A DNA stretch of 47,107 nt from NCBI GenBank assembly GCA_017615125.1, contig JAGAAS010000066.1:1-47107 (forward strand), given 5' to 3'. Positions 3,478 to 41,768 of this stretch are shown piece by piece; the first letter of the stretch is position 1; each line of letters starts with the position of its first letter. A program made the position numbers and the translations under genes. The stretch is from Bacteroidaceae bacterium. GTDB taxonomy: Bacteria; Bacteroidota; Bacteroidia; Bacteroidales; Bacteroidaceae. Under the pieces are notes generated by a model, which made no database searches, was not told the DNA's origin, and saw nothing but the letters and a program-made list of their open reading frames with translations.

Positions 3478-3932
3478 TCTTCTCTCCTTATTTTATTTAA
3501 AGGGCCTCGTTCTTTCCGGTTTGGGCCGTCAAAATGGGGTGCTTCCAGAGGTGTCTGTAGGGACGATTTTTTTAGCCTGAAATATGAAGAAAGAATCTCG
3601 CCGTATGAAGAAGGGAAAAATTTTTTTCCTTCTCGAAAAATTTTTTTGGAGAAAGAAAAAATATGTGGGATTTATGTACTGCTATTCAAAATGGGTTAAA
3701 TGATAAACGGGGCTTTTTCTTAATATCGGTACATAGTTCGGAAAAGTTCTGCGAATTTTGGAATCTGGTATACGTATAACGCTAAAAATTTTGTGGAATC
3801 TGCTGTCTTATTGCTCTATAAGTTCCTTGTTTATTGGGTGGAAAGGGAAAAATTCTTGCGTAGGATACAAATGCTTCAGTCGCCTTTCGGGAGAGTGGGG
3901 AGTGTCGTTTCCCTCATCGGGGAAAGAGGCTC
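3478..3932. other. Gene-free stretch upstream of tig
   Basis: About 455 nt between the 3' end of the M6 protease gene and the tig promoter. It holds copy A of the 21-bp modular repeat (3586-3668) and otherwise AT-rich sequence. A short inverted repeat TTTCCC/GGGAAA at 3908-3925 lies just after the protease stop but has no T-run. Open frames here show no recognisable protein features. Confidence 0.6.
3586..3668 (+). repeat. 21-bp modular intergenic repeat, copy A
   Basis: Four consecutive units of 21, 21, 20 and 21 nt. Unit 1 is GAAGAAAGA plus ATCTCGCCGTAT; unit 2 is GAAGAAGGG plus an A5T7 tract; unit 3 starts with CCTTCTC, the reverse complement of the GAGAAGG block, so it is partly inverted; unit 4 starts with GGAGAAAGA. 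Units 2 and 3 together form a hairpin. The same modules recur at 10711-10800, 15741-15900 and 41693-41768. The copy lies about 110 nt upstream of the tig promoter. Confidence 0.8.
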
Positions 3933-5603
3933 TTAGTGGGAAAAGATGCCCGACTTGTCGAGCTGCTTGACGTACCTGCCGTCCTTCCGCACGATGCGTA
4001 TCGAGCTGTTGAGGTAGTAGGGTGTTTCCGCTTCCTCCTGCTCTGCGGCAGGGAGCTCTCGTCGGATGGAGGTATCTACATATCCGTTGAAGTTGAACCG
4101 ACAGGGTCCTCCCTTTTCGCGGGTGATGCCCTTGAGAGGCTTGTTCATCGTGTTGCCGAACGAAGTGATGCTTGCGGGAGTCGTCTCGGGCCCGAATGCG
4201 TGGTTCTCGGCACCGAAGAGCTGCTTGTCGACGGTTTCGAAGGAGTAGTCGTTGTTGGCTGGAACGATGTAGTAGCGGTGCCGGTTTCTGTCAGTGTTCA
4301 CATGATTGCTCGTCCAGGCCGATGCGTCGTAGTTGACGCACGAAATCATGAGCCCGTAGGTGGGGGAGTGGCTGTACCAGTTGCCCCAGATGCTGTCGTT
4401 AGGGCATTCGACACGCTGGATGTTCTCAAACACAAAGTAGGAGGTGGTATCCTCGTCGTTGACGAAGGCGCGCCAGCCTGTGGGCACCTCGTTGGTAGGG
4501 CTCAGGGCGATGGTGTCGGGCTCCGAGAGCGTCTGCATGGGAATCCATCCGAGCGAATATCTCTCGAACGAAGTATATCCTTGCGGCACGAATCCCTCGG
4601 CTGCGTACATACCATAATCCATTACGCTCCAGTAGTCGACGGCAAAGTCGTCCCTGTCGTTGACGTTGTAGAAGTCGGGCAGCCCGACGATGTGGCTGAA
4701 CTCGTGCACAAAGGTGCCGATGCCGTTAATGGCCTTGGTGTCGAGGAGAAGCTCCGAGGAGCAGGCGAACTTGGAGATGCTCATGTCGCCGAGCGTGAGC
4801 GGGGAGGAGAGGTTCCACGCCTTTGCCCAGATGCTGTTCGGCCCCCCGTATTGTGCCTCGTCGGGCCCGGCGTAGACGATGTAGACGAAATCGACAAATC
4901 CGTCGTCGTCCCCGTCGTAATCGGTGAAGTCGGAGAGCCCCTGATCGTACACTTTCTGGCACGCTTCCTTCACCATCTGTCGCACGTTGACGTCGCTGCC
5001 GGCTCCTCCGCGCCCGTTCCCTCCGTAATAGGCTTGCGTGCTATCCATCCGGATGGGACCGATGACGTCGAACGTGGGGCGGAACTTGCCGAAGGACTGA
5101 TCGTGAAAGTAGTCCCTCACGCTTCCCGGAACGGTACACGAGAGGCGCAGCGTGTCGCCGATGGCCTGGCTCCACTCGTTGATGGTGATCTCCTCGCTGT
5201 AGTGCTCGGCATTGAACCTGTTGGAGAGGAGCAAATGGATGGAGTCGTTGCTGACGGAGAACGGAAGGTCGGTGAAAGAGACAAGGATGACAACGCCGTG
5301 TACCGTGCCGGTTGTGGGGAAGTCCTTCATGCGGTAAGCGCCCGTCTTGGCAAGAATCTTGTTGGCGGAGTGCTCTCGGTTGAAGTCGTCCCACGTGAAG
5401 GAAACGAGCGAGCCGTCTTCGTTCTCCTCCCAAAGGGCTCCTTCCTCTGTCTGATAGGCATGTCGGAACTCATCGCCGACAAGGCGTACCCTGAGGGTCG
5501 TTCCGTCAGGCATCGTCTTGTTGAAGAAGCCGCGTCGAGCCGGTCCTGCGCAGAGGATTGTCGTGCACAGGAACAGGATCAGGAGAAGGCTTGCTCGTTT
5601 CAT
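3933..5603 (-). CDS. Secreted M6 family metalloprotease
   Basis: Predicted extracytoplasmic zinc endopeptidase of the immune inhibitor A-like M6 family. The 556-aa product starts with a clear signal peptide (MKRASLLLILFLC..., cleavage near residue 20). The zinc motif is HEFSH (His300, Glu301, His304) followed by VGLPD with Asp310 as the likely third ligand; the extension HEFxHxxGLPDxY is diagnostic of M6. An acidic DYDGDDDG segment (about 228-235) could bind calcium. The C-terminal 200 residues contain no domain I can name. Longer readings reach back into lptB, but the ATG at 5603 starts the signal peptide 16 nt after the lptB stop, so I take it as the true start. Probably co-transcribed with lptB. 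Substrate unknown. Confidence 0.88.
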   Translation of the reverse strand: MKRASLLLILFLCTTILCAGPARRGFFNKTMPDGTTLRVRLVGDEFRHAYQTEEGALWEENEDGSLVSFTWDDFNREHSANKILAKTGAYRMKDFPTTGTVHGVVILVSFTDLPFSVSNDSIHLLLSNRFNAEHYSEEITINEWSQAIGDTLRLSCTVPGSVRDYFHDQSFGKFRPTFDVIGPIRMDSTQAYYGGNGRGGAGSDVNVRQMVKEACQKVYDQGLSDFTDYDGDDDGFVDFVYIVYAGPDEAQYGGPNSIWAKAWNLSSPLTLGDMSISKFACSSELLLDTKAINGIGTFVHEFSHIVGLPDFYNVNDRDDFAVDYWSVMDYGMYAAEGFVPQGYTSFERYSLGWIPMQTLSEPDTIALSPTNEVPTGWRAFVNDEDTTSYFVFENIQRVECPNDSIWGNWYSHSPTYGLMISCVNYDASAWTSNHVNTDRNRHRYYIVPANNDYSFETVDKQLFGAENHAFGPETTPASITSFGNTMNKPLKGITREKGGPCRFNFNGYVDTSIRRELPAAEQEEAETPYYLNSSIRIVRKDGRYVKQLDKSGIFSH

Positions 5604-5619
5604 GCTATGAAAGGTTCTT

Positions 5620-6564
5620 CTAAGCTTCTGTCGTATCGTCAGGTTCGGCTGGAACATCTTCGTTCTCGTCAGCTGGTGTGGGCACATCTGTAAGAGGAAC
5701 CTCGTCCTCAGTTACGGGCGTGGGCTCTTCGACTGGAGTCTCTTCAACTTCAGCTTCTGGCGTAGGCTCTTCTGTGTGAGGAATCTCGTCGGGAGCAACC
5801 ATGAAGTCTTTCTTGCGGAGTATGAAGTTGCTGCCGAGGTACTTGGCGCGCACGATGTCGTTGGCGGCGAGCTCCTCGGGCGTTCCCTGGAAGAGGATGC
5901 GTCCTTCAAACAGCAGGTAAGCCCGGTCGGTAATCGACAGCGTTTCCTGAACGTTATGATCTGTGATGAGAATCCCGATGTCCTTGTATTTCAGGCTCCA
6001 GACGATGCGCTGGATGTCTTCGACGGCAATCGGGTCGACGCCAGCGAAGGGCTCGTCGAGCATGATGAACTTAGGGTCGATGGCGAGGCATCGGGCAATC
6101 TCGGTACGTCGGCGCTCGCCTCCCGAGAGCTGGTCGCCCTTGTTCTTGCGCACCTTCTGGAGGTGGAACTCGGCGATGAGGCTCTCGAGCTTTTCCTTCT
6201 GCTCCTCGCGGCGGATGTCCTTGCGCATCTCCAGCACGGAGATGATGTTGTCCTCGACAGTCATCTTGCGGAAGACGCTGGCTTCCTGCGGCAGGTAGCC
6301 GATGCCTTTCGCCGCGCGCTTGTAGACGGGGAACCCGGTGATGTCCTCGTCGTCGATGAAAATCTTTCCTCCGTTGGTGGGGATAAGGCCTGTCGTCATG
6401 TAGAAGGATGTCGTCTTGCCGGCTCCGTTAGGGCCCAGCAGACCAACGATTTCTCCCTGGCGCACGTTGATTGACACGTTGTTGACAACGGTTCGCTTGC
6501 CGTAGCGCTTCACCAGTCCTTCGGTGCGCAGCATCATCTTGTGCTCTTCGTTCTGTTCTGTCAT
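5620..6564 (-). CDS. lptB: LPS export ABC transporter ATP-binding protein LptB, with C-terminal extension
   Basis: Cytoplasmic ATPase that drives lipopolysaccharide extraction from the inner membrane by LptFG and transfer via LptC to the outer membrane. Visible: Walker A GPNGAGKT (about 44-51), signature LSGGERRR, Walker B FIMLDEP, H-loop TDH, and the LptB-like stretch [15 protein letters not shown]. The family is normally near 240-250 aa; this one has 314 from the ATG at 6564 because a Pro/Glu/Thr-rich acidic tail of about 60 residues follows the core (from about [10 protein letters not shown] to DDTTEA). Further in-frame starts exist at 6603 and 6537. Promoter at 6626-6657. Followed by the M6 protease gene; divergent from mlaE. 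Confidence 0.93.
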
Positions 6565-6625
6565 AGTGAGTACCAAAAACAAGGAAAGGATGTGGACAAT
6601 CATCCGTTCGGTTACAAAATTGCCT

Positions 6626-6657: not shown

Positions 6658-6675
6658 CATAATAGGTTTTTTTAG

Positions 6676-6683: not shown

Positions 6684-6688
6684 TGCGT

Positions 6689-7438: not shown

Positions 7439-7439
7439 A

Positions 7440-8331: not shown

Positions 8332-10476
8332 TTAGAAGAAGCGGTAGCGGCTGTCGACGACTTTCGACTTGCTGAAGAGCTCGTTGACCAGACGACCGGT
8401 AGTCAGGGAGCGTGTTGCGGTAGCAACAGCGTTCTTCTGCTCCTGCTCAGCGTCGTAGGTCTGCGCGCCCTGGTTCTTCTCTACTACCTGGATGAAGTAG
8501 ATACCGCCGTTGCCCTTGATGGGGCCGTCGAAGTCACCTACCTCCATGCCTGCTGCCTTACCGCTCAGAACGGGCTCGCTGGCTGGAACGAGGCTTACGA
8601 AGACGGGTGATGAGAAGGTGACGCGCGTGAGGGTGTCGCTCTTGGCGTTCTCCAGAGCGGAGGCTTCTGCCAGCGTCTTCACGTTCTTCACGTCGGCCAG
8701 GATTTTCTCAGCCTTCTTCTCGTTGAGGGCTTCGTAGCGGAGCATGTCCTTAGCTTCGCTGAAGGGGATGTAGCCCATGGGCTGCACCTTGTCGAGGCAG
8801 AGGGCCAGCAGATGGTCGTTCTGTCCAGCCTCGAAGATCTGCGACACGTCGCCCACCTTGGCGTTGAAAGCCCAGCGGAGAGCCTCGCGGGTGTTCTCCA
8901 CACCGCCTACGTTGTGAGCGGTGTTCTGCATGTTGGTGAGGGGGAGGAGACGGAAGCCTGCTTCCTCAGCGTTGGCTTCGAACTCTTCGGCTGTCTGGTT
9001 GGAGGCAACGAACTGGCTCAGCTTGTTGTATGCCTGGTTGTAGGTCTCCTTGCTGAAGTAGGCGGGACGCTTAACAACAGCTACCTGATACTTCTCAACG
9101 GGGTTCTTGGTGCCCGTGACGTTGACGATGAGGGAGGCTCCGTCGAAGTCGAGCTTCTTGATCTCGCCTGCCTTCATGGCGTTCAGGGCGTTGATGTAGG
9201 TTGCATTGTCGCCCATGATGGCGCCGCCCTCGTAGCTGGCGGAGGCTACCCACTGGGGCTCGGCCTGCTGTCCGTAGCGCTCGGCCAGTTCAGCAAAGTC
9301 GGCACCCTGCTTCAGAGCGTTGAAGATGCTGTCGGCAAGTTCAGCGGTGCGGGCGGGGTCTTCCTCAGCCACCTGAATCTGGCGGTACTGGATGGAGTCG
9401 GGACCGGTGGTCTTGGCCATGAGGCGGAAGGTGTTGTACGAGTCGTCCTCCTCGTTGTAGTAGACGGGCTCTACGGCGTCGATGGCGGCAGCGGCTACGC
9501 GCTCGGCGATGTCGGCGGGCAGGCTGGCAGCGGTGCGGGGCACCTCGCTGTAGGTGACGGTCGACTCCGACAGGCGTACGACGGAGGCCATGTTCTCGGG
9601 AGTGGCTTCAGCCAGCTGGGCGGTGATCTCGTTCATCTCCTCCTGGATGGCCTGACGGTCTTCCTCGCTGGGAACGACGGCGATGTCGATGTACTTCAGG
9701 TCGCGCGTCTCGGCATACTGATGGTAGCTTTCCTTGCGCTTGTTGTAGAGGACCTTGATGTCGGCGTCGGTGACGGTCACGGTGGAGTCAGCAACGGCGG
9801 TGAAGGGGACAACGGCGTAGGCCAGCTTGCAGTAGTTGTTGCGGCCCTCGTAGAGGCTCTGTGCAGCTACGGGGTTGCTGAACTGTGCGTTGGCAACGAG
9901 TGCCTCGTATTTGTTGAGGAGAAGCTCGTGGGTGAGGTTCTTCTCAAGGAACTTCCAGTAGTTGTACACGTTCTGGTAGTACTCGGTGTACTGGGCAGGC
10001 GTGTTGTTCAGGTCCATCTCCTTATACTCGTTGAGGAAGTTGTAGAGGAGGTCCTTATCGAACTTGCCCGTCTGCTGGTTGACGAACATCGACTGCGTGA
10101 GCAGCTGGTGTGTGCCTTCGTCGAGGGCAGCTTCAATCTCGGCGGGAGTGACGGTGACACCCATCTTGCCTACCTCGTCCTCGATGAGCTTGCGGGTAAC
10201 CATCTGGTTCCATACCTCGTCCTTGATCTGGCTCATCTGAGCGTCGGTAAGCGAGGAGGTACCGCGGGCGAACTTCACCACGTTGACGTACTCGTCCAAT
10301 GCTTCCTGATAGTCCTGAATGGATACTTTGTCGCCATTGATTTCACCTACGAAGCGCTGGTTCTGAGTGGGGCGGATAGCCTTGATACCGTCGCCGACGA
10401 TGAATGCGAGCAGGGCGATGCCGATGACGACGAGCAGCAGCCACCCATGCTTTCTAATCTTTCCTAATGTTGCCAT
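8332..10476 (-). CDS. PpiD/SurA-like peptidyl-prolyl isomerase, membrane-anchored
   Basis: Periplasmic foldase for exported and outer-membrane proteins. The 714-aa product has a short cytoplasmic N-terminus, one transmembrane anchor (HGWLLLVVIGIALLAFIVGDG, about 10-30, described here by position) and a SurA_N-like chaperone region (about 35-200). A parvulin-like PPIC segment lies near 345-450 (reading YRQIQVAEED, then ADFAELAERYGQQ and GGAIMGDNA), with a second parvulin-like or helical region near the C-terminus (about 580-690). This is the layout of PpiD and of the Bacteroidota SurA_N-type isomerases. In related genomes such a gene often follows the LptC/CorC block; here it is several kb away. 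A -7 box is seen at 10550-10557. Confidence 0.9.
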   Translation of the reverse strand: MATLGKIRKHGWLLLVVIGIALLAFIVGDGIKAIRPTQNQRFVGEINGDKVSIQDYQEALDEYVNVVKFARGTSSLTDAQMSQIKDEVWNQMVTRKLIEDEVGKMGVTVTPAEIEAALDEGTHQLLTQSMFVNQQTGKFDKDLLYNFLNEYKEMDLNNTPAQYTEYYQNVYNYWKFLEKNLTHELLLNKYEALVANAQFSNPVAAQSLYEGRNNYCKLAYAVVPFTAVADSTVTVTDADIKVLYNKRKESYHQYAETRDLKYIDIAVVPSEEDRQAIQEEMNEITAQLAEATPENMASVVRLSESTVTYSEVPRTAASLPADIAERVAAAAIDAVEPVYYNEEDDSYNTFRLMAKTTGPDSIQYRQIQVAEEDPARTAELADSIFNALKQGADFAELAERYGQQAEPQWVASASYEGGAIMGDNATYINALNAMKAGEIKKLDFDGASLIVNVTGTKNPVEKYQVAVVKRPAYFSKETYNQAYNKLSQFVASNQTAEEFEANAEEAGFRLLPLTNMQNTAHNVGGVENTREALRWAFNAKVGDVSQIFEAGQNDHLLALCLDKVQPMGYIPFSEAKDMLRYEALNEKKAEKILADVKNVKTLAEASALENAKSDTLTRVTFSSPVFVSLVPASEPVLSGKAAGMEVGDFDGPIKGNGGIYFIQVVEKNQGAQTYDAEQEQKNAVATATRSLTTGRLVNELFSKSKVVDSRYRFF

Positions 10477-10710: not shown

Positions 10711-10800
10711 TCCCTTTTCCAAAAAATTTTTTCGAGAAGGGAAAAATTTTTTTTCTTTCTTCATACGGCGAGATGTAGAAAGAAAAAATCTTTTTTCTCC
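10711..10800 (-). repeat. 21-bp modular intergenic repeat, copy B
   Basis: Read on the minus strand: GGAGAAAAA with a T-rich half, an inverted block CTTTCTAC plus ATCTCGCCGTAT, then GAAGAAAGA plus an A/T palindrome, then CCCTTCTCG plus A6T6, then GGAAAAGGG. These are the same modules and order as copy A, with one extra inverted unit. It lies about 150 nt upstream of the -7 box of the ppiD-like gene. Confidence 0.8.
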
Positions 10801-11158
10801 TAGCATAATTCTGCGAGGAAAGTTCCTAGTTCTCGTGACAAAAGCGCATACATACGACTTCGTAAACCGCCTTCTTCGCTTCCGTTTCCTGCCACTTGAC
10901 GGTCGGTTCTGCCACTTTACCCCCGCAAAAGTGGGTTTTCTATGAGCTTTCCGAAGCGTGACAAGAGCGCCAAGTAGAGGGAAAAGAAACGAAACAAGGG
11001 GTCAAAACATGTCTTTTCGGGCTTTTTAGAAGAGGAAAAATGGCTTTTTTTACCCTCTATTTGCCCTTTTTTGAGGTATAGCAATGTAAGGGAAGATGGT
11101 TTTATGATATTGTATTTCGTTGTTTTATAGCTTTTTAGCTTAGTAAATGGCTAAGATT

Positions 11159-11712: not shown

Positions 11713-12555
11713 ATGATGAAGAAAATTCAGATCCTTATTCTGCTGCTTGCTTTTGCAGTACCCTCCCTTGCGCAGGAGCTGAACGTGATGAGCTATAACA
11801 TCCGCAACAGCGGTGCCAACGACGGGGAGAACAGCTGGGAGCTCCGCAAGAAAGCGTCGCTGACGCTGCTGAAGGAGGAGAAACCCGACCTCCTTGGCCT
11901 CCAGGAGGCGTTGCCTGACCAGTATGAGTTTTTCAACAAGCATACGCGCCGCCGCTACGGGCACGTGGGTGTGGGGCGTGACGACGGCAAGAGCGAAGGC
12001 GAGTGCATGGCCGTCTACTACAAGAAGCGCGCCTTCAAGTGTCTCGGGAGCGGCACGTTCTGGCTCAGCGAGACTCCCGACCAGCCTACGCTCGGATGGG
12101 ATGCCGCCTGTAAGCGTACGGTGACGTGGGTGCACCTGCGCCACAAGAAGACGGGCAGGGAGGTGTATTACTTCAACACGCACCTCGACCACAAAGGGCC
12201 CGTCGCCAGGCGTGAATCAATACTTCTTATCTGCCGTACCATCGCCGAGATGGTGCCCGAGGGCGCTACAGTCGTGCTGAGCGGCGACATGAACAGCAAT
12301 ACCTCCGAGCCTATCTTTGCTCCGCTGGCTGAGGCAGGCCTGCTGTCGTCGCGCGACGTCGCTCCCGTGACGGACAACAGATCGACCTACAACGGATGGA
12401 AGGAGGGCAACGATCCCTCCGACGTCATCGACCATATCTTCGTCCGCGGCTGCGAGCCCCTGAGCTTCCGCGTGCTCCGCGACAAGACCTACGGCGCGCC
12501 CTTCCTTTCCGACCATTATCCTATCGTCCTCCGCTTCCGCCTGCCGGAGAAATAA
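11713..12555 (+). CDS. Secreted endonuclease/exonuclease/phosphatase family protein
   Basis: A 280-aa metal-dependent phosphodiesterase-fold protein (EEP superfamily) exported through a signal peptide (about residues 1-20, ending SLAQ). Fold motifs are in place: MSYNIR (Asn29), LQEA (metal ligand Glu65), NTHLDH, SGDMNSN (Asp192, Asn194), and the terminal catalytic SDHYP (Asp267, His268). Substrate cannot be read from this; relatives include nucleases, sphingomyelinases and phosphoinositide phosphatases. Followed 12 nt later by the C69 peptidase gene, so the two form an operon, driven by tandem promoters upstream. A second ATG at codon 2 is equally possible as start. Confidence 0.88.
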   Translation: MMKKIQILILLLAFAVPSLAQELNVMSYNIRNSGANDGENSWELRKKASLTLLKEEKPDLLGLQEALPDQYEFFNKHTRRRYGHVGVGRDDGKSEGECMAVYYKKRAFKCLGSGTFWLSETPDQPTLGWDAACKRTVTWVHLRHKKTGREVYYFNTHLDHKGPVARRESILLICRTIAEMVPEGATVVLSGDMNSNTSEPIFAPLAEAGLLSSRDVAPVTDNRSTYNGWKEGNDPSDVIDHIFVRGCEPLSFRVLRDKTYGAPFLSDHYPIVLRFRLPEK

Positions 12556-12567
12556 CACTCAAATAAC

Positions 12568-14337: not shown

Positions 14338-15624
14338 TTAGCGGATATCGAGGCGCACAAGGGTAATCTTGTTGCTGACAGCCTTCAATATCTTAAACTG
14401 GAAGTTGGGCGGGACGGTTACTGTCTGCCCTACGGAGGGGATGTTGTGGCAGGCTTTCAGGATGAGTCCCCCGATGGTGTAGTAGTCGTCGTCGATGGGC
14501 AGGCCAAGGCCGAACATATCTTCCACCTTCTCTATCTCGAGCCTTGCCGAGAGGATGTAGCTGTTCTTCCCGACGGCTTTGGCGACGTAGGAGGTGGTGT
14601 CGTGCTCGTCCTCGATGTCGCCCGTGAGCTCCTCCATGATGTCCTCGAGGGCAACGATGCCGGCAGTGCCTCCAAACTCGTCGACAACGACGGCAAGGGA
14701 CAGTTTCTGTTGCATGAGGGTCTTCATCAGCTTCTGGACGCTGGCTGTCTCGGGCACGATGGGCATCTTGCGCAGCTGAAGGTCAGCGACGGTGAGGCGG
14801 GAGTCGCTTCCGCTGCCTGTCTGGAACAGCTCCGAGGAGTGGATGTAGCCGATGATGTTGTCAATGGAGTCTTCGAAGACGATGATCTTCGAGTAGCCCG
14901 TTTCAACAAACTTGTGGATGAGCTCGTCAATGCTGTCGTCCTTGTCGACGGCGGCAATCTCGTTGCGGGGAATCATGCAGTCGCGCACCCGCAAGGTGGA
15001 GAAGTCGAGAGCGTTCTGGAAGATCTGCACCTCGGTGGAGGCGGGCTCGTCGCCCGAGGCTATGCTGCTCTCTATCAGGTCGTCGAGGTCGGTTTTCGAG
15101 AAGGCGTGCGTCGTTACCTCCTTGCCTATCTTGATGCCGAAGATGCGCAGGAGCAGGCGTGCGAGCCACGAGCTGAAGATGGAGACGGGATAGAGGAGGA
15201 TGTAGAAGAACCAGGTGGGAAGCGACAAGGCCCGCAGGCTTCCGTTGGGATTGAGGCGGAAGATGGTCTTCGGGAGGAACTCGCCGAAGATGATGACGAA
15301 GAAGGTCGACACGATGGTGTCGAGCAGCAACATAGCGAGCTCCGTCTGGAAGAGAGGTATCGTCATCCACACCGGGTCGAGGAGCTTAGCCATCAGGATG
15401 CTGTAGACGACAAGCACGATGTTGTTGCCGACAAGCATGGTGGAGATGTAGTTGCCCGGATGGCGGTAGAAGATGCCGAGTATGCGCGACGACAGGCTCC
15501 TGTCGGCCTTGTCCATCTCGTAGCGCAGCTTGCTGCTCGACACGAAGGCTATCTCCATCCCCGAGAAATAGGCGGAGCAGAAGAGCACGAGGATGACGGT
15601 TATGATCTGTAGGGTGACGGACAT
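14338..15624 (-). CDS. CNNM/CorC (HlyC/TlyC) family membrane protein, GldE-like
   Basis: A 428-aa inner-membrane protein of the 'hemolysin family' that includes magnesium/cobalt-efflux-associated CorC proteins and GldE of Flavobacteria. Domain order: DUF21 membrane region with an N-terminal helix (about 4-26) and two or three further helices up to about 190; a CBS pair (first at about 211-270, VRDCMIPRNEI..., second at about 275-335); and a C-terminal CorC_HlyC domain (about 345-425). The name hemolysin is historical; ion transport or envelope regulation is more likely. It follows lptC at the end of an envelope block but is set off from it by repeat copy C, and no clear promoter was seen before it. 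Confidence 0.88.
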   Translation of the reverse strand: MSVTLQIITVILVLFCSAYFSGMEIAFVSSSKLRYEMDKADRSLSSRILGIFYRHPGNYISTMLVGNNIVLVVYSILMAKLLDPVWMTIPLFQTELAMLLLDTIVSTFFVIIFGEFLPKTIFRLNPNGSLRALSLPTWFFYILLYPVSIFSSWLARLLLRIFGIKIGKEVTTHAFSKTDLDDLIESSIASGDEPASTEVQIFQNALDFSTLRVRDCMIPRNEIAAVDKDDSIDELIHKFVETGYSKIIVFEDSIDNIIGYIHSSELFQTGSGSDSRLTVADLQLRKMPIVPETASVQKLMKTLMQQKLSLAVVVDEFGGTAGIVALEDIMEELTGDIEDEHDTTSYVAKAVGKNSYILSARLEIEKVEDMFGLGLPIDDDYYTIGGLILKACHNIPSVGQTVTVPPNFQFKILKAVSNKITLVRLDIR

Positions 15625-15942
15625 GAGCTATTGGCGTAAGGGGTTCTGTTGCGTGGTGTTTCTCTTCCCGTGAGGGGCAATAACGGTTGCGATGCTGCCA
15701 GTTGACTTTCGTGGATTATTTGTTTTCGAAAACGAATTATGGAAAAGGAATCTCGCCGTATGAAGAAGGGAAAAATAAATATGAAGAAAGAAAAACTTTT
15801 TTTGGAGAAAGAAAAAATTTTTTTGGAGAAGGAAAAAATTTTTTTGGAGAAGGAATATCGCGATATGTAGAAAGAAAAAATCTGTATGTAGAAAGAGGGG
15901 TGTAGGAGATGTTCGTCTCGTTCCTTTCGGCTTTTTCTTGTC
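15625..15942. other. Gap between lptC and the CorC-like gene
   Basis: About 318 nt. Half is repeat copy C (15741-15900); the rest (15625-15740) shows no promoter of the usual type and no gene. An open frame crossing the repeat exists only because the 21-nt period keeps it free of stops. Confidence 0.6.
15741..15900 (+). repeat. 21-bp modular intergenic repeat, copy C (largest)
   Basis: Seven complete 21-nt units in exact register (starts 15741, 15762, 15783, 15804, 15825, 15846, 15867) plus a partial eighth. Each unit is a 9-nt purine block of type GNAGAARGR followed by a 12-nt palindrome or near-palindrome: ATCTCGCCGTAT, an A/T type, or ATATCGCGATAT (perfect, 15855-15866). Units 4 and 5 are almost identical, suggesting recent duplication by slippage. 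Confidence 0.85.
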
Positions 15943-16689
15943 TCATTGGGAAGGAGTTTTCTGTTTCTCGCTCATCGGGATGTCGGCAGGCTCGGGAGCA
16001 GCTAAGGGTGCACCGCTTGTCTCGTCGGGCACCACGATGTCGGAGTCGGCAGGGACTTCGTTGATGTCGGGCTCCTTCCGCAGGTCCTCGATGGGGAAGA
16101 TGCCCTGCGTCTTGCGGATGATGTAGTTGGTGAACTGCTGGTTGCTCTCGAAGCCGAAGCCCGTGATGATGCGGTCTTTCTGACGGATGCGTATGAAGAG
16201 GTCGGACCATACGCGCTCGGTGTCCTGGTTCCAGAAGAGCAGCTCGGTGTCGAAGATCTCGCCCTGCAGGTTCTCGATGTGTACGTTGTGGCGCAGCTCC
16301 CAGAGCTTGGTCTTCTCGAAGTAGTAGGCGGTGTCGGCCTTTACCGTAGCGTCGATGTGGAGGCTGTCGGTGAAGCGCTCGAGGTAGATGCCGTGCTCGA
16401 ACTTCCACATGGGGGGCTCCAGCTGGTCGTAGATTTCCCACTCGGCGGTGACGATGCGGTAGCGCACGACGCCCGAGTCGGAGATGGCGGTGTTCACGTC
16501 GTAGGTGATCATGCCGGGCACGGAGTCGCGGTGAAGGATGGCGTCGGTGTATTGTTTCTTGTCTCGGCTGCAGGAACAAAAGAGCATAGCAATCACGCTG
16601 AGCGTGACTGCTATGCTGTAAAGGTTATATGTTGTTCTGCGATTCCTCAAGCTCTTAACGGATGGTTGTGTTCTCGTCGATGAGACCAC
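15943..16689 (-). CDS. lptC: LPS export ABC transporter periplasmic protein LptC
   Basis: Bridges the LptBFG transporter to the periplasmic LptA chain in lipopolysaccharide export. The 248-aa product has a hydrophobic N-terminal stretch (about 22-37) ending in a lipobox-like LFCSC, consistent with the lipoprotein form of LptC in Bacteroidota. The beta-jellyroll LptC region (about 55-190) shows VRYRIVTAEWEIYD, then TVKADTAYYFEKTKLWELRHNV read as repeated strands. A Pro/Ala/Glu-rich tail follows. The GTG at 16689 overlaps the TPR gene by 35 nt; a TTG at 16650, just after the TPR stop, is a good alternative. Adjacent to TPR and outer-membrane protein genes in a conserved Bacteroidota arrangement. 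Confidence 0.85.
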   Translation of the reverse strand: MVSSTRTQPSVKSLRNRRTTYNLYSIAVTLSVIAMLFCSCSRDKKQYTDAILHRDSVPGMITYDVNTAISDSGVVRYRIVTAEWEIYDQLEPPMWKFEHGIYLERFTDSLHIDATVKADTAYYFEKTKLWELRHNVHIENLQGEIFDTELLFWNQDTERVWSDLFIRIRQKDRIITGFGFESNQQFTNYIIRKTQGIFPIEDLRKEPDINEVPADSDIVVPDETSGAPLAAPEPADIPMSEKQKTPSQ

Positions 16690-21937: not shown

Positions 21938-21951
21938 AGACAACCCCAATC

Positions 21952-21997
21952 TGATTATCTGATCATTCGATTATTTGATTATCTGATTATTTGATTC
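21952..21997 (+). repeat. Short tandem repeat of TGATTATC/T units
   Basis: About six imperfect 7-9 nt units based on TGATTATT and TGATTATC fill the gap between the DUF3737 and MalY/PatB-like genes, ending 7 nt before the latter's ATG. Probably a slippage-prone microsatellite; copy number changes here could alter spacing to the start codon. Confidence 0.6.
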
Positions 21998-23177: not shown

Positions 23178-23278
23178 TCACAGCTTCCACTCATCACTTT
23201 TAACTCATCAATAATCGCTCTCCAAAAAGGTTGAGCCTAAAGAAAGCCATAGTGATTAATGGTATATATTTGTACGAC

Positions 23279-23362
23279 AGAGTTAAACTACCGCACAGCG
23301 GAGTTAAACAATAACGTGACGGAGTTAAACTCTAACACAGCGGAGTTAAACAATAATACATC
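23279..23362 (+). repeat. Four-unit 21-nt tandem repeat (GGAGTTAAAC type)
   Basis: Units start at 23279, 23300, 23321 and 23342. Each begins RGAGTTAAAC and ends in a variable half (for example AATAACGTGAC, TCTAACACAGC). The sequence is unrelated to the other 21-bp family, but the period is the same. Confidence 0.75.
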
Positions 23363-26500: not shown

Positions 26501-28060
26501 TGTTCCTGCCTTCTGGGCAACAGCCTGGTAGGAAGTCGTATTGCTGCCGCTTACGGCTACGACGGAAGCATCCGACGATGTCCACGACTTGATGGTACTT
26601 GTTGCATCAGCAGGTTCGAAATAGTAGCTTAGGTCTACGTCTTCTCCCACCCAGACGGTCTGAACGGGATTGTTGACGTAGATACCGGAAGCAACAGCCA
26701 CTACTGTTATTGTCATGCTGGCTGTTACTTGAGGATTATCCACTGACGTAGCCGTCACGCGGCATGATCCTGTTGCCTTCGCTGTAGCCGAAGAACCGCT
26801 GATGCTTACTATTGATGTGTTGTTGCTCGTCCACTTCACGCTCTTGTCGTAGGCGTTTTCGGGAAGGACAGACTTAATATATTGGGACAAATCAACTGTA
26901 TTACCGCGATTGATGGTTAAGCTTTGTGTTGTCAAGTTGATGCTTTCCACGTGCGCGCGTACCTCTATCTTAATGATAGCCGTCTTACCACCCTCAACTG
27001 TCGTAACAGTCAGTGTAGCAGTCCCAACCTTTTGGGCAACAGCCGTATAACCCGAAGATGTTTGTTCAACCTTCACTACGGTGTTGTCGCTACTCTTCCA
27101 GGTTACATTCTTGTTCGTTGCACTAGACGGCAGAATCGTGTAATTTAAGTTGGCCGACTCGCCAATGAAAAGTATCTGGTTCGGCTTTTCTACAGAAATG
27201 CCCGTAACCCCAGATTCAACCCTGAAATACCCTTTTTTCCAGATGAAGTAATCGCCGGAAGTGTCAACCCCGAAATTGAACCCTTCAGGTGCCTCCATGG
27301 AGCAAGGCTTAGATGTAGAACCGATTCCATTACATGCTCTCTGGTCAAGGCTGCTCATCGAAGCAGAAATGCTGAAGCTTGTCAACCCGCTGCAACCAGA
27401 GAACATCTCCGTTGAGTTTTTGACGTTGGCGATATTGAAACTGCTTACATCAAGACCCGTCAACCCACTACAGTTGTAGAACATATAGGCCATCGACGTG
27501 GTTTTGGCCGTATTGAATTTGCTTACATCAATAGTCTTCAAGCTCTTACATTCTCTGAACATGCTGTACATATCCGTAACTTCGGTTGTGTTCAGATATT
27601 GCAATCCTGAAATATCGCTGAGGTTTTTGAGATAATAGAACCACGAATAAGTGCTAGTCGGCTTGACTTCAGCAAATGCCTTGTCAAAGACGACAGAGGT
27701 GACGCTCGTAAGGCTGCTGTTCTGAGGATTTGGATTCCAAGCAGGGTTCTCGCTTCCTGTGTTCAGTTCATAGGTTGTTCCGTCTCTTTGGGACTTTTGG
27801 TCGTCGTAGCAGAACGTGAGGGTCTTGCCGTCACTCGATAGCCAAACATAAGCACTTGTCGGTTCCACGATATGTGCACCCGTCACAGTCTTCCTCGTGC
27901 GGTTGCCCAAAGCATCAAAGGTATAGGAGATGGTTGTGCCATCGGAATAGACTACCTTTGTCAATCTATTAAGATTGTCGTATGTATAAGTGGTCTGAGC
28001 AAAAACTTGTAAGACCGAAAAAAGAAAAACCCCAAAAAACAATATTCTATTTTTCATCAT
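23504..28060 (-). CDS. Mosaic surface protein: YD fragment, BspA-like LRR, Big_2, dockerin-like, FISUMP-like, FGE-sulfatase domains
   Basis: Predicted secreted protein of 1518 aa. Order by eye: signal peptide (1-21); an isolated RHS/YD segment (about 24-58, YTYDNLNRLTKVVY and YTFDALGNRT); a linker; BspA/DUF285-like leucine-rich repeats (about 155-230, MFRECKSLKTIDVSKF, MFYNCSGLTGLDVSSF); five or six Big_2 Ig-like domains (about 285-805), two pairs nearly identical; a dockerin-like pair (about 810-862, GDVNNDGDVNQQDLYALVD and DIDGDGSLSVADITKLV); a Fibrobacter-paralogous (FISUMP/DUF1566-like) domain (about 871-1045); a formylglycine-generating-enzyme/sulfatase-modifying domain (about 1063-1295, GGSFTMGATDGW, LPTEARWEFAARGG, GNVCEYVQDYF, YRGGSY); a beta-rich region; and the short tail WYDLSGRRI...KGVYIKNGQKVVV. 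Likely an adhesin or structural surface protein. It is 55 nt after the RHS gene, so probably co-transcribed. Confidence 0.82.
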   Translation of the reverse strand: MMKNRILFFGVFLFSVLQVFAQTTYTYDNLNRLTKVVYSDGTTISYTFDALGNRTRKTVTGAHIVEPTSAYVWLSSDGKTLTFCYDDQKSQRDGTTYELNTGSENPAWNPNPQNSSLTSVTSVVFDKAFAEVKPTSTYSWFYYLKNLSDISGLQYLNTTEVTDMYSMFRECKSLKTIDVSKFNTAKTTSMAYMFYNCSGLTGLDVSSFNIANVKNSTEMFSGCSGLTSFSISASMSSLDQRACNGIGSTSKPCSMEAPEGFNFGVDTSGDYFIWKKGYFRVESGVTGISVEKPNQILFIGESANLNYTILPSSATNKNVTWKSSDNTVVKVEQTSSGYTAVAQKVGTATLTVTTVEGGKTAIIKIEVRAHVESINLTTQSLTINRGNTVDLSQYIKSVLPENAYDKSVKWTSNNTSIVSISGSSATAKATGSCRVTATSVDNPQVTASMTITVVAVASGIYVNNPVQTVWVGEDVDLSYYFEPADATSTIKSWTSSDASVVAVSGSNTTSYQAVAQKAGTAVLTVTADNGQTATIQVTVRAHVTDILLSTESVTVNKGSTTDLSQFISAVLPEDAYNKSVKWTSNNTSVISISGSSATAKATGSCRVTATSVDNPQVTASLTITVVAVASGIYVNNPVQTVWVGEDVDLSYYFEPADATSTIKSWTSSDASVVAVSGSNTTSYRAVAQKSGTAVLTVTADNGQTATIQVTVRAHVTSILLSTESVTVNKGSTTDLSQFISAILPEDAYDKSVKWAVTDTSTVVTISQSNSVWQMTANREGSATLKISSIDNPQATAFLLVTVVTDKPHNGDVNNDGDVNQQDLYALVDAYLDNAQATLYTDIDGDGSLSVADITKLVEIINPGSGTQETIVNGHEYVDLGLPSGTLWATCNVGATKPEEFGGRYAWGETETKEKFNWSNYIHCDGTKETCHDIGSNISGTEYDVAFVKWGGPWQMPTSDQLKELKANCRYEWTTLNGVSGGKLTGPNGNSIFIPSTGTSVTDGVCWSSTADYENKSYRMRFEEAIVITGSYSRDVGYPVRPVIASNNPFENEDLQSIVNNLINNMVNVEGGSFTMGATDGWGYEDERPVHEVTLSPYKISRYEVTQQLWKAIMDSNPSSFIGDDLPVNNVSWNECTEFIKKLNNLTSVVFDDEFCLPTEARWEFAARGGILGKDLEQGNGYQYSGGYNNIENMESYVWCSDNSDGTTHAVGSKKPNELGLYDMSGNVCEYVQDYFSESYTEEAQTDPIGVSEADAHIYRGGSYNRPKWQCRLASRYGAKPDEKLKECGLRLATRAQTIDVEDVTLYPNQPSDITISLTGMKKCIATSFIVELPEGSFRLSNGYLGVGTPLVGCFNDDHVVISKSLDDKTMRVVIYSPSNSVFKGGWVSDGEPQEAEPGGDPNISGGGRHMPSAHLKAKDSLEEGTDLFKLNITAEGMDFGTYQGNIKNVQLTLKDLRLVSLPDIVYQLTIQEDTDIIDINVDAEQNDIWYDLSGRRIIYQPDSKGVYIKNGQKVVVSK
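25801..26832 (-). repeat. 516-bp tandem duplication inside the Big_2 region
   Basis: Two copies (25801-26316 and 26317-26832) in exact 516-nt register and almost identical; a third, more diverged copy begins at 26833. Each encodes 172 aa, equal to two Big_2 domains. The near identity points to recent duplication or gene conversion and makes this stretch prone to copy-number change and misassembly. Confidence 0.8.
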
Positions 28061-37168: not shown

Positions 37169-40100
37169 TTATTTGATGAATATTTTAGAGACTTTCCCCT
37201 CGGCATCATGCGCAATAACAATGGTGCCAGAAGGAACAATGTCGATAGGACGGCCCATAACATCGTAGAACGTGGACCTGCTTGTTACTTCCGGAGCCTC
37301 TATGGAAGACAGACCGTCTCCATAAACACGGCAGAGAGCATCGCTGGCTGCAGCTATTGTCTCTGCATCCATCTTGATGGTACTCCTGTCGGCGGTGACG
37401 AGTCCGTCAGCTTGAAGCTCAACGTCTGTCAGTCGCGCATAGACAGCAGCGGCAAGGGCTGTATTGATACGGGAGACGACAGTTCCTTTTGCCAATGTCT
37501 GGAGTGTAGCAACGAGTGCCGTGTACTGATCGATGTTGTTCGATGTGTTACCTCCGCATTTGCCTAGAACGAAAGGAAGTGATGCGTCACAGAAGGTGAT
37601 GGCGAGATTCTTTCCTGTATTGTGAAGGTCGAGCATGTTGCCCTCCCCTTTATGGTGGTTTCCTCCGGAGGCGGCATCGATAAGGCGTGTGCTATCCATT
37701 TCGCGGGTGAGGGCTACGGTCTCTGCTGTCTTGTGCTGTCCCTTCGCTTCGTCAAAGAGTGTCCAGATAACGATGGAAGGATGGTTGTAGAGAGCTGTAA
37801 CGATGCTGCGCCATTCGCTTTTGTAACGACTTGCCGCAGAGGTGGAGAGGGAGCCGTCGTCATCGGAGTACCAGGCATAGGGCTCCCAGATCTCTGTTTC
37901 TTTGGCGATAGCGGGCATATCTTGCCAAACCAGCATGCCCAGCCTGTCACAGTGGTAGTACCAGCGTTGAGGCTCCACTTTCTGATGCTTCCGGATGGTG
38001 TTGAATCCAAGCGATCGGGCGAGCTCAATATCGTAGGCAAGGGCTTCGTCGGAGGGAGCTGTATAGACGCCGTCAGGCCAGTAGCCTTCGTCAAGCACAC
38101 CATAGAGGAAGAGGTCCTGATTGTTGAGTTGGAAGTGCCAGCGTCCTTCGGTATCCTGGACTGTCGCTATCTTGCGCATAGCGGCGTAGGACGAAACGGC
38201 ATCAGTGGTAACGCCGTCAACAGAAAGGGTTACGTCTAAATCGTAAAGGAACGGGTCGGCTGGGCTCCATAGATGTGCGTTTGTCACAGGAAGAATGATA
38301 GCTTCGTCTGCGTTTCCAGCCGTTTCTGTGATAACCGAAGAGCCATCTTTGAGTACTACTTTCACTTGTCCGCCTGTTGCTCCTTCCGTTGTGACATTAA
38401 CTGTGAGCGTGCTTTTGTCTACATCGGGAGAAATGCGAAGATTGGAGATGTAAGTACTTTCGACGGGTTCCATCCATACTGTCTGCCAGATGCCGCTCAC
38501 GGAGGAGAATCCTTGCTCGTCGTTCCCTTCGGGCTTGGAGCGTTGGAGTCCAATGACTTGAGCTTCCTCGTCCGTAGGGTCTGTTACACGAATCAACAAC
38601 ACATTGGGCGTGCCATCTGTTGTGAGGTTCTTGGTGATGTCAATGGTAAGTTCTGTGTAGCCGCCGATATTGTTGCGCTTTATGACGCTGCCGTTGAGCC
38701 AGAGGTAAGAGATGTTATCAATAGCCCCAAGGTGTAGGAGAATGTTCTTTCCGCTCCATTCTTCGGGAATCGTGAACTCTTTACGATACCACAGATAATA
38801 ACCGTCATCGAGCCAAGTACCGATTCCCGAGAGGGAGGACTCAAGGGGGAAGGGAACAAGGATTTTCTCGCTGAAGGACGAGGGCGTGGAAGCAACTTTC
38901 GTGACAGCGCAATCCCACAGGCCGTTCATGCTCTGCCATTCGCTGCGCTGCAACAAGGGACGCGGATATTCAGGAAGGACGTTAGCGGTATCGAGTTGCA
39001 GCCCCCACTTGGTTAACACGGTGGTGTCGGCGGGATGCCAACTGTTGTTGCTTTCGGGGGATACGTGCTTGTCCATAAGCACTTTCATCCAGTAGCCTCC
39101 GATGACGCTCCGGGCGCGGAATCCTCTCATCTCGCCCGAGGTGGTCCAATGCCAGTCGCAGATAGGTACGCGCGAGGGAGTTTCGTTGACATATTTGTAC
39201 ATAGGCTCCATGAAACGGATGAAGGTGTCGTTGTCGTCGGCCATTGCTGCCATCCAGAGAACCCAGTCGCTCTTCGTGTATGTCTCGCGGTTGTCGAGCG
39301 GAATGCCGTATCTGTTCTGCTTGTTGCGATAAAAGCGTATCTCGCGTTGCATGGCGCGATTGGGGAAGAGGTTCGTCTGCCAGAGTTTGTCCCATACCAT
39401 ATTATATTTAAGGCTCCAAGTGTTCTCCCTGTCGAAAGCAAGACGGTAATGATCTCCGTCGCGCGCATCCATTTCCCATTGCCGGGCCATAGCTGCAGCC
39501 TTCGCCATATATTCGTCAGCCATATTGAGATAAGTAGGAGAATTCGTTTCCAAGCCTCGCACTCGAGCAATCTTTGCGAAAGCTGCGACACCCATGATGG
39601 CTTTGATGGAGAGGTTGGCGTTGTGTGCCCAATGCCCGGCAAAGTCGTCCGTACAGAGTTGGTTAGCAGGGTCCTGTCCGTTTGCTACGAGGTAGTCCGT
39701 CCATCGTTTCGCGATGTTCCAGTATTTGCGCATCCATGTGGAGAAGCCTTCCCGTTCAACGATATAGGCGGTGAGGATGAGAATGTTGCCGCTTTCCTCG
39801 AGGGGCATATCTCCTCCGTACACCTGCCCGTTAGCATGCGGATAGGTGCCGAGATCATGAGCGGCAAAGTCCTTGTTCCACTTGCCGGAGCGTGTGTAGT
39901 CGTAGATGGAAGTAATCATCGCCTTTTCCAAGTCGGGATTATAGCAGAGGAAGAGGGGAGCCGAGGGGTAGGTGAGATCGACAGTATTGACGCAACCGTT
40001 CGAGTTGTTCTCCTTAGAGAAGAAGAGAAGGTTGCCGTCTTTGTCTTCAAAGAGCTTGTGCGCAGCAATCACCTGTCGGTACGAAGCGCTTAGAAGTTCG

Positions 40101-41587
40101 GCGTAATGAACATTGGCTGCCTGCAGTCCGTCGTCGTAGATGGTCTTGTCCTGCTGGTGGCAACGAGCCATGATGTCGTTATATCCGTCGCGTAGTTCCT
40201 CGAAGGCTTGGAAGATGGTCTTGCCGTTGCGTGCCCAGTAACCCTTGTAGTTTTGCTTCATGTATTGGATGTCGTACACCTCGTCGTAGCCGAGCATCAT
40301 AAACGTAGAGCCTTCTGTAACAGAACCGAAGTCGTGCCTCCAGGCCAGCGCAGGCAGGTCCTCAAGACAAGTGCTGTTGATGGACGTTTCGCTTTCGGGC
40401 AGGTTTCCTGTCTCGGCGAACGTCTCTTCTATGATGAGTTGCGACGCTAGGCTGACTTCGCCGTTGACGGCAGGCAGGTAGAGATATCCCCAGTCGATGC
40501 AGATGAGGTCTCCCGAACGTCCCAGGACAGGCTGTGCCTGCGTGCCGGCTTTCAAATAGCGGATGCCGTTTTCTTCGATGAGCGTGGAAGTTGTGGGCTG
40601 CATCTCGTCGTTGACGGTAAGCTGGGGCGTCGTCTCAAAGAGGAGGCAAACGTCGTGAGGCTGCCCGTCGGTGGAACGAACGCGGGTAGAGATATAGTTG
40701 ACGGGGGTGGAAAGCAGGTCAAGGTTGTCGATAATCATCGGTGCCGTGAAGACGGCGTCAAGCTCCACAGGACCGCAGCTGAAGGTGTAGTAGGTGCTTG
40801 TTGCAAGCACGTCGACGCTCTTCTGCGTGGCAATCTTGATGTCGGCATTCTTTACTAAGGTGTTCTTGTAAAGCCCGAAGTCGACATAAGCCCCGCCTGT
40901 GGTATTGTGGCAATGTGCCGCGATGATGTTCTCGCCTTCGTGGAGCAGGGCTCGCTGAACTGCGCTGAGCTGCAGGCGCTCACCCTGAAGCCAGGTTTCG
41001 CCTGTGGAGATGATGCGGGTGCCGTTGAGGTACATCTCGAAGACGTCGTCGTGCGAGAAGACAATCCACAGATCTTCCTTCAAGTCGTCGGCAGAGAGGG
41101 TGACGGGCCTGCGGATATAGATGTCGCTGTTGGTTGCTGTCCACGATGTCTTCACGTGAGGATATTCGTTGGCGGTGCCCCATGCGGCAGTCTCGGTTTT
41201 CCAGCTGCTGTCGTTGAAGGAGGGGTTCATCCATCCCGTGCTGAGCGAATAGCTCACGCGTGCCGTCCACGCCTCCACGTTCGTCATTGGGGCGATGGCC
41301 GTGAGGAGGGCTTCTGTCTCCTTGCCCATCCAGCGGTAGGTGGTTCCGTCGACGCGCAACAAGCCTCCCATAGCCTTCTCGGCGTGGGTCCAATGGCGCG
41401 TGTTCCCGTCGGTAAGCTTATCGAAGGGGGACCAAAGGGAAAAATAGGGGTCGTTGACGACAAGAGGAACGGAGGGAAGCCGCAAGTCAGTCGTGCGGTA
41501 GGGCGTGAAAAAGTCGTCGGATTGCGCTGACAAATGGAGCGACATGAATGTCGCAGCTATTAGTAAGAGGAATGAGCGGTTCTTCAT
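37169..41587 (-). CDS. Glutaminase-like (DUF4964/5127/4965/1793) protein fused to a GH2 domain
   Basis: A 1472-aa secreted two-part protein. Signal peptide 1-22 (start ATG at 41587, which fits the promoter; a longer TTG reading to 41656 crosses it). N-terminal part (about 25-830) is a glutaminase A-like family member: DUF4964-type TDLRLPSVPLVVNDPYFS, DUF5127 beta domain, DUF4965 and helical DUF1793 regions (GGDMPLEESGN, HWAHNANLSIKA, WTLKYN-type). C-terminal part (about 865-1430) is a GH2 (beta-galactosidase/glucuronidase-like) unit with sugar-binding, Ig-like and TIM-barrel domains. In the barrel the acid/base motif reads NHPSIVIWTLFDE (Glu1280; DE instead of NE), and the nucleophile motif GEFGG of relatives reads GKCGG (Lys1343), so hydrolysis by this domain is doubtful. 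It ends in a short FYDVMGRPID...IVIAHD tail. Confidence 0.82.
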   Translation of the reverse strand: MKNRSFLLLIAATFMSLHLSAQSDDFFTPYRTTDLRLPSVPLVVNDPYFSLWSPFDKLTDGNTRHWTHAEKAMGGLLRVDGTTYRWMGKETEALLTAIAPMTNVEAWTARVSYSLSTGWMNPSFNDSSWKTETAAWGTANEYPHVKTSWTATNSDIYIRRPVTLSADDLKEDLWIVFSHDDVFEMYLNGTRIISTGETWLQGERLQLSAVQRALLHEGENIIAAHCHNTTGGAYVDFGLYKNTLVKNADIKIATQKSVDVLATSTYYTFSCGPVELDAVFTAPMIIDNLDLLSTPVNYISTRVRSTDGQPHDVCLLFETTPQLTVNDEMQPTTSTLIEENGIRYLKAGTQAQPVLGRSGDLICIDWGYLYLPAVNGEVSLASQLIIEETFAETGNLPESETSINSTCLEDLPALAWRHDFGSVTEGSTFMMLGYDEVYDIQYMKQNYKGYWARNGKTIFQAFEELRDGYNDIMARCHQQDKTIYDDGLQAANVHYAELLSASYRQVIAAHKLFEDKDGNLLFFSKENNSNGCVNTVDLTYPSAPLFLCYNPDLEKAMITSIYDYTRSGKWNKDFAAHDLGTYPHANGQVYGGDMPLEESGNILILTAYIVEREGFSTWMRKYWNIAKRWTDYLVANGQDPANQLCTDDFAGHWAHNANLSIKAIMGVAAFAKIARVRGLETNSPTYLNMADEYMAKAAAMARQWEMDARDGDHYRLAFDRENTWSLKYNMVWDKLWQTNLFPNRAMQREIRFYRNKQNRYGIPLDNRETYTKSDWVLWMAAMADDNDTFIRFMEPMYKYVNETPSRVPICDWHWTTSGEMRGFRARSVIGGYWMKVLMDKHVSPESNNSWHPADTTVLTKWGLQLDTANVLPEYPRPLLQRSEWQSMNGLWDCAVTKVASTPSSFSEKILVPFPLESSLSGIGTWLDDGYYLWYRKEFTIPEEWSGKNILLHLGAIDNISYLWLNGSVIKRNNIGGYTELTIDITKNLTTDGTPNVLLIRVTDPTDEEAQVIGLQRSKPEGNDEQGFSSVSGIWQTVWMEPVESTYISNLRISPDVDKSTLTVNVTTEGATGGQVKVVLKDGSSVITETAGNADEAIILPVTNAHLWSPADPFLYDLDVTLSVDGVTTDAVSSYAAMRKIATVQDTEGRWHFQLNNQDLFLYGVLDEGYWPDGVYTAPSDEALAYDIELARSLGFNTIRKHQKVEPQRWYYHCDRLGMLVWQDMPAIAKETEIWEPYAWYSDDDGSLSTSAASRYKSEWRSIVTALYNHPSIVIWTLFDEAKGQHKTAETVALTREMDSTRLIDAASGGNHHKGEGNMLDLHNTGKNLAITFCDASLPFVLGKCGGNTSNNIDQYTALVATLQTLAKGTVVSRINTALAAAVYARLTDVELQADGLVTADRSTIKMDAETIAAASDALCRVYGDGLSSIEAPEVTSRSTFYDVMGRPIDIVPSGTIVIAHDAEGKVSKIFIK

Positions 41588-41625
41588 TAGGAAGAGATGA
41601 GTTTCTGTGGTTTTGGAATTTGAAA

Positions 41626-41657
41626 CAAAGGTAGAGGATTTCTTCCTTTCCTGCAAA
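41626..41657 (-). promoter_or_regulatory. Promoter of the glutaminase-like/GH2 gene
   Basis: Minus strand: -33 TTTG at 41654-41657, 20-nt spacer, -7 TACCTTTG at 41626-41633, a full match. It lies 36 nt downstream of repeat copy D. Confidence 0.75.
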
Positions 41658-41692
41658 CGTTGTCTTCGGTTTTTTGGGAGATGCTTTTGAGA

Positions 41693-41768
41693 GAAGAATT
41701 TTTCGAGAAGGGAAAAAATTTTTTTCTTTCTACATCTCGCGAGATTCTTTCTTCATACGGCGAGATAC
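41693..41768 (-). repeat. 21-bp modular intergenic repeat, copy D
   Basis: On the minus strand: GTATCTCGCCGTAT (41755-41768), then GAAGAAAGA plus the perfect palindrome ATCTCGCGAGAT (unit 41734-41754), then GTAGAAAGA plus an A/T palindrome (41713-41733), then the inverted block CCCTTCTCG with a truncated A/T half. Same modules and 21-nt register as copies A-C. Confidence 0.85.

Follow-up and report, generated by a model that had tools for sequence, protein, structure and literature searches.

The stretch of DNA analysed here, positions 1 to 47,107 of contig JAGAAS010000066.1 from a Bacteroidaceae metagenome-assembled genome (MAG), carries four arrays of a modular repeat in the gaps between its genes (Table 1); we refer to the whole 47,107-nt stretch as the window. 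Each repeat unit consists of a 9-bp box (GNAGAARGR, also CGAGAARGR) and a 12-bp word, set on a 21-bp lattice. A first-pass annotation had assigned these four places to one repeat family with some flipped units, and both points are borne out: the same 9 + 12 modules can be read at all four, and boxes occur in both orientations on the same lattice. The sequence GNAGAARGRAWA is found 13 times in the window against 0.20 expected, a count reached by none of 100 shuffles; eleven copies lie inside the four arrays and two stand alone, at 6191 and 25074. The 20-bp step from 3607 to 3627 in array 1 is the single step in these arrays that departs from 21 bp.

A 21-bp lattice of boxes and words

The lattice was measured in a sample of the same MAG (G000; 3,030,049 bp in 107 contigs, 87% complete) that comprises the window and 40 further stretches, 838,527 bp in total or 27.7% of the assembly, with genes called by our own hexamer caller. 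The stretches were picked on hit-bearing contigs, giving a mild enrichment (78 of the 233 copies of the 17-mer TCTCGCCGTATGAAGAA, against 64.5 expected). Defining a strict array as at least two strict boxes on the lattice, we find 93 arrays in this sample, with 2-8 strict boxes at 21 bp in mixed orientation, and the 17-mer share extrapolates to ∼280 arrays in the assembled genome. When two mismatches are allowed, the full assembly contains 233 copies of TCTCGCCGTATGAAGAA and none of its backwards control, which disposes of the concern that the pieces are random A/T-rich matches absent elsewhere in the genome; three AGAARG motifs spaced 21 bp apart occur 238 times, against 30 in the control.

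Neighbouring strict boxes no more than 30 bp apart are separated by exactly 21 bp in 230 of 244 cases, which agrees with the two-turn phasing proposed earlier, and those up to 70 bp apart by 21, 42 or 63 bp in 241 of 262. Spacing is independent of orientation, the 21-bp pairs comprising 148 in the same orientation, 45 convergent and 37 divergent.

The words are of two types, A/T and C/G, and both halves of a word belong to the same type in 193 of 230. Their description as palindromes did not survive closer inspection: exact palindromes account for 36 of 230 12-mers, the dominant one (ATCTCGCCGTAT, the main C/G word) is not palindromic, and both types are less symmetric than words with re-paired halves (C/G, 3.24 of 6 against 4.20 ± 0.13; A/T, 4.86 against 5.05 ± 0.07). 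Convergent boxes flank A/T words in 40 of 45 pairs, and divergent boxes flank C/G words in 26 of 37. Module order is mosaic, the commonest order being shared by 8 of the 93 arrays, with 186 distinct 21-mers among 339. Stop codons are scarce: the 79 arrays of at least three boxes leave a median of four of six frames open, compared with 0-2 stop-free frames in 68 of their 79 letter-shuffled versions.

Table 1. Positions, modules and neighbouring genes of the 21-bp arrays in the window.
Feature	Position	Strand	Boxes, slots or units	Words	Setting	Basis
Array 1	3586..3656		Boxes 3586(+), 3607(+), 3627(-), 3648(+)	ATCTCGCCGTAT, AAAAATTTTTT (11 nt), AAAAATTTTTTT	Gap between trigger factor gene (2042-3403, minus) and peptidase M6 gene (3933-5513, minus)	Read from sequence
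Array 2	10712..10804		Slots 10712(-, variant), 10733(+), 10754(-), 10775(+), 10796(-, variant); 21-bp steps		Divergent gap between SurA-like gene (8332-10476, minus) and Exo_endo_phos gene (11713-12555, plus)	Read from sequence
Array 3	15741..15896	+	Eight same-orientation boxes, starts 15741 to 15888; 21-bp steps; first is a variant	ATCTCGCCGTAT, AAAAATAAATAT, AAAACTTTTTTT, AAAAATTTTTTT (x2), ATATCGCGATAT, AAAAATCTGTAT	Tandem gap between CNNM/CorC gene (14338-15624, minus) and LptC-like gene (15943-16587, minus)	Sequence; Tandem Repeats Finder (TRF), period 21
Array 4	41704..41775		Slots 41704(+), 41725(-), 41746(-), 41767(-, variant)	AAAAAATTTTTT, ATCTCGCGAGAT, ATACGGCGAGAT	Gap between two minus-strand genes (37169-41545 and 41894-44530)	Sequence; TRF, period 21
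Second 21-bp family	23276..23356		GAGTTAAAC units		Between genes 22005-23177 (+) and 23504-27964 (-)	TRF, periods 42 and 21

Placement, in-frame copies and turnover

Most placeable arrays are intergenic (79 of 86): 53 of the 93 lie in tandem, 14 in convergent and 12 in divergent gaps, seven in predicted genes and seven at stretch edges. A relaxed box profile, for which these very arrays served as training set, finds at least two lattice boxes in 80 of 345 gaps of at least 60 bp and at least three in 67; no letter-shuffled gap reaches either count. Occupancy is similar in all gap types, at 45 of 230 for tandem, 11 of 55 for convergent and 11 of 60 for divergent gaps. The earlier statement that each copy lies between a minus-strand gene start and the preceding gene needs correction: one of the four window arrays, array 2, occupies a divergent gap, and placement in the sample follows no gene orientation. 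Arrays in tandem gaps sit nearer the upstream stop (mean 0.36 versus 0.5 if uniform; standard error 0.04, n = 51). The Bacteroidetes -7 promoter motif, TAnnTTTG, is found between array and start at 37 of 77 starts, and solely beyond the array at 5.

Of the seven in-gene arrays, two (L052, L076) appear to be chance matches, and the remaining five belong to four genes in which an array is clearly recognisable. These genes encode FGAR amidotransferase (purL), a polysaccharide deacetylase, a chromate transporter and a flavoprotein fusion, NfnAB-like to judge from its domains. Units of 21 bp, or seven codons, and the scarcity of stop codons would preserve the reading frame. In purL, the stretch between two fixed motifs (both parsed in 11 of 16 loci) measures 234 nt in G000, 213 in G005 (its sister species in the same genus; MAG 91% complete), 150 in G009 and G012, 147 in G003 and 156 in six others. 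The insert is thus carried by both family-bearing species, at lengths that differ by exactly 21 bp, or one unit. The G000 deacetylase is 147 nt (7x21) longer than that of G005, the single relative compared, and the two arrays of the chromate transporter both fall within the C-terminal tail, a segment that might have arisen by reading through what was once a gap. In TRF counts (made after removal of rows overlapped by a better row), predicted genes of the stretches examined contain no period-22 array and, in G000, seven of period 21, a figure that includes ordinary seven-residue repeats.

The linker of the NfnAB-like fusion, parsed by regular expression in 5 of 15 loci, varies among relatives. 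It carries an array in G000 and other short repeats, e.g. CAATTGTCAATTG-like ones, in congeners (L202, L207, L210), so repeats of any kind may tend to settle there.

Among 61 genomes searched, the main sequence family is present in number only in G000 and G005, whose median identity is 80% over 102 reciprocal best proteins in the samples. Their 36 orthologous gaps comprise four with an array in both species, four in G000 only (one with variant boxes in G005 by eye), one in G005 only and 27 in neither (Fisher p = 0.005). At one locus a 22-bp CAACGCGTTG array in G000 faces 21-bp boxes in G005, and the commonest word differs: ATCTCGCCGTAT precedes 67 of 474 boxes in G000 and 2 of 224 in G005. With the terminal inverted repeats and target-site duplications of a MITE in mind, orthologous gaps, purL and the deacetylase were compared by eye; the flanks had diverged too far to give a clean empty site. 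The database matches listed include six stretches from a yak omasum MAG and two lone matches (Omnitrophota, Novosphingobium) judged to be chance. A phage or plasmid origin was rejected, the largest window array having no match in a phage or plasmid collection; the 17-base pattern is present as a single copy in each of 12 viral contigs, with neighbouring boxes absent.

Other sequences on the same pitch

The G000 sample contains 20 further intergenic TRF arrays without the main box, of period 21 (5) or 22 (15); masking gives 19. The same genome has the second 21-bp family of the window, which forms two more clusters in the sample (L045:10755-10882 and L071 ∼17160), and two 22-bp families, CAACGCGTTG (L045, L048, L051, L052, L057, L066, L067) and CCTTCACGAAGG (L041, L042, L048, L057, L064, L072). 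Some of the 22-bp arrays have matching ends (e.g. GGGGGTC with GACCCCC, TTGTTTATACC with GGTATAAACAA), and the two that were folded, in L048 and L042, pair end to end.

Relatives were surveyed with TRF in stretches from contigs with family-search hits, except for five first contigs; G017 and G011 gave no usable gaps, and G032 (3.3 kb) and G045 (1 kb) were excluded. In 25 genomes, intergenic arrays number 97 at period 21 and 37 at period 22, with one each at 20 and 23; removal of the main-box units of G000 and G005 leaves 49, 35, 1 and 1 at periods 21, 22, 20 and 23, respectively. Twelve of 17 same-family genomes with usable gaps hold at least one such array, and none was found by TRF in the usable gaps of G002, G010, G035, G019 and G027; a looser score adds one period-21 array in G017. 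Eight genomes from other families, covered over 296.5 kb with 35.9 kb in gaps, yielded five arrays and none of period 21 or 22, although one has period 42 and one 43. Single-linkage clustering, which wrongly merged the sites of G026 (see below) with the main family, yields 10 groups of at least two arrays and 34 singletons, some of them perhaps decayed copies. Since the arrays of relatives differ in sequence and yet share a near-identical grid, spacing may matter more than letters. The stretches of G009 and G012 are also rich in intergenic repeats with periods of 7 and 14, in addition to 21-bp arrays.

Units are more palindromic than their letter-shuffled counterparts in G000 (main box removed), G005, G009, G012, G026 and G020 (0 of 200 shuffles reach the value), and in one unit each from G028 (3 of 200) and G023 (7 of 200); any excess is unclear in G016 (14 of 200), G031 (17), G007 (127) and G021 (185).

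G026, a complete-looking genome, belongs to another genus. Paired AAACANNNNTGTTT sites separated by any 0-30 letters number 122 there, against 0 in the control. Among the pairs listed, spacing is always 22 bp, or 44 bp in seven, and the 8-bp spacers vary. The outer ten letters of these sites are set by the query; at the four centre positions left free, the sequence mostly matches AAACAATATTGTTT or AAACACAAGTGTTT. Many cassettes consist of four AAACAATATTGTTT sites, one of which is the variant AAACACAAGTGTTT. The 52 variant sites are distributed asymmetrically about dnaA (2.947 Mb), with none in the adjacent 2.20 to 2.94 Mb. A kept palindrome, a variable spacer and a fixed two-turn pitch would be the trace expected of a cooperative dimeric protein.

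What the arrays may be

Published accounts describe bacterial interspersed mosaic elements (BIMEs) and repetitive extragenic palindromic (REP) elements as dispersed intergenic mosaics in both orientations, numerous in each genome, species-specific and of fast turnover, with proposed roles in protein binding and chromosome organisation (PMC2817692, PMC3733652, PMC6006769). The G000 arrays resemble them in being extragenic, numerous and mosaic, and differ in their strict orientation-independent 21-bp lattice and in some in-frame genic copies. Rickettsia palindromic elements (RPEs), ∼150 bp long in a published account, are selfish-looking and lie in frame in unrelated metabolic genes (PMC10969869). 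The G000 arrays likewise enter unrelated genes in frame; they are, however, mosaics of 21-bp units and mostly intergenic, with runs of 2-8 strict boxes in place of a ∼150-bp palindromic unit. Iteron and operator arrays consist of direct repeats two helical turns apart, suited to cooperative binding on one face. The G000 arrays share this spacing but occupy many dispersed loci, with no replication or regulator gene identified with them. CRISPR loci combine near-identical 24-48 bp repeats with unique spacers, in contrast to the 9-bp boxes and 12-bp words of G000, which recur at many loci. A search of the open-licence literature by title and abstract opening found no description of 21/22-bp phased intergenic arrays in Bacteroidota, in line with the first-pass remark that no such family is described; this absence is weak evidence, because the search covered open-licence literature only.

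The explanation we favour, to which we give about an even chance, is that the arrays are BIME/RPE-like repeats, dispersed, modular and tolerant of insertion, and that a DNA-binding protein able to sense helical phase maintains their two-turn pitch. It builds on the dispersal, the lattice, its independence of orientation, the mosaic order, the turnover between two species, the in-frame copies and the pitch shared by other sequences; the protein, the mechanism of exchange and the lack of benefit to the host are inferred. The arrays would be non-coding, fast-turnover mosaics of 9-bp purine boxes in either orientation and 12-bp words, gained, lost and resized wherever extra DNA is tolerated: in the stretch from the end of a gene to the promoter that follows, and in the loops, linkers and tails of proteins. 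Two processes, exchange between identical words and inversion between the words on either side of a box, would reorder boxes and turn them round with the lattice left intact. The pitch would persist because each array serves, or served until recently, as substrate for a phase-sensing protein whose dimers bind cooperatively along one face of the helix; that protein may also be what propagates the array. The earlier suggestion of a protein-binding array is supported as a possibility; the binding protein itself is putative.

Several observations weigh against this explanation. The agreement in type between word halves looks like selection on the word, and shared occupancy above chance could mean retention for a function. 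The protein search was confined to REP-associated tyrosine transposases (RAYTs). Neither a mobilising enzyme nor a target-site duplication or conserved terminus came to light, termini having been judged by eye at few loci. At a looser TRF score (40), G000 yields 2 arrays of period 20, 43 of 21, 17 of 22 and 3 of 23, and the stretches of relatives are a non-random sample, since their contigs had given hits. The purL loop also varies without an array (147, 150 or 156 nt in nine relatives), so the length difference is a multiple of 21 relative to G009 and G012 and not relative to the other seven.

A selfish or neutral element is favoured by the in-frame copies and by turnover, a lattice bound by the host by the shared occupancy and the sites of G026; either reading requires the protein. 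A rather unlikely rival, in our judgement, is that each array is a selected host element, a lattice to which a nucleoid-associated or regulatory protein binds so as to insulate the genes nearby or control them, with a separate dimeric protein for every sequence family. It would account for a two-turn pitch across different, often palindromic sequences, for the regular spacing with variable spacers in G026 and for occupancy of orthologous gaps beyond chance; it fits poorly with copies in frame within purL and other genes, with the similar occupancy of tandem, convergent and divergent gaps, and with the five of nine occupied orthologous gaps that are filled in one species only.

The main sceptical alternative dispenses with a protein: slippage and recombination would have spread the pitch of one founder, and likeness to other families would be chance or sampling. 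In-register, homology-driven exchange could maintain a lattice, the purL difference between species is one unit, periods of 84 (4x21) are seen, and the stretches were sampled non-randomly. We nonetheless hold it improbable, as it leaves unexplained both the in-place flips of boxes and the concentration of other sequences at 21 and 22 bp, with 20 and 23 nearly empty.

An action as RNA, through terminators or transcript-protecting hairpins, appears very improbable. Three of eight strand folds of the window arrays have z < -2 (array 1 minus strand, -2.73; array 2, -3.76 and -3.09), and folds are strong in two 22-bp G000 arrays (z -4.3 to -10.1) and two G026 arrays (-6.3 and -4.8). The other five window folds, however, range from -1.76 to +0.06, 148 of 230 neighbouring boxes share an orientation, divergent gaps, which lack gene ends, are occupied too, and the window has no Rfam match at gathering scores. 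RNA hairpins were rejected as the general principle that the annotation had considered, the two strands of array 3, the largest in the window, giving z -0.50 and +0.06. Phased curvature, also raised there, was rejected as well: in a wedge model, the mean predicted bend per 100 bp is 21.0 degrees for 79 arrays (scaled to 100 bp), near the 23.9 of phase-broken arrays and below both letter-shuffled arrays (31.6) and 89 array-free gaps (43.2; 100-bp pieces). That the arrays are REP/BIME elements moved by a RAYT (Y1) transposase is hardly credible: they are intergenic, mosaic and species-specific, and some boxes start GTAG or GGAG, but PF01797, found in 22 of 41 genomes and 5 of 14 controls (a set that excludes G026), has no match in G000 (87% complete) or G005 (91% complete), and in place of a 20-40 bp imperfect hairpin with a tagged foot, the unit is a 9-bp box with a 12-bp word.

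More broadly, we tentatively propose, as something short of probable, a Bacteroidaceae-wide class of intergenic arrays in which the pitch (21 or 22 bp) is conserved and the sequence is replaced in each lineage; rapidly diversifying phase-sensing proteins, or one common machine, would build or occupy them as species-specific helical lattices along the chromosome. REP/BIME-type repeats are usually tied to one transposase family, and here an abundant class occurs without that enzyme having been found. Its helix-fitting grid recurs with other sequences in relatives and enters a purine-synthesis enzyme in frame, and the function of BIME-like repeats becomes testable via a protein that reads the pitch.

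The window also contains a short tandem repeat of period 8/16 (ATCTGATTATTTGATT) at 21949-21996.

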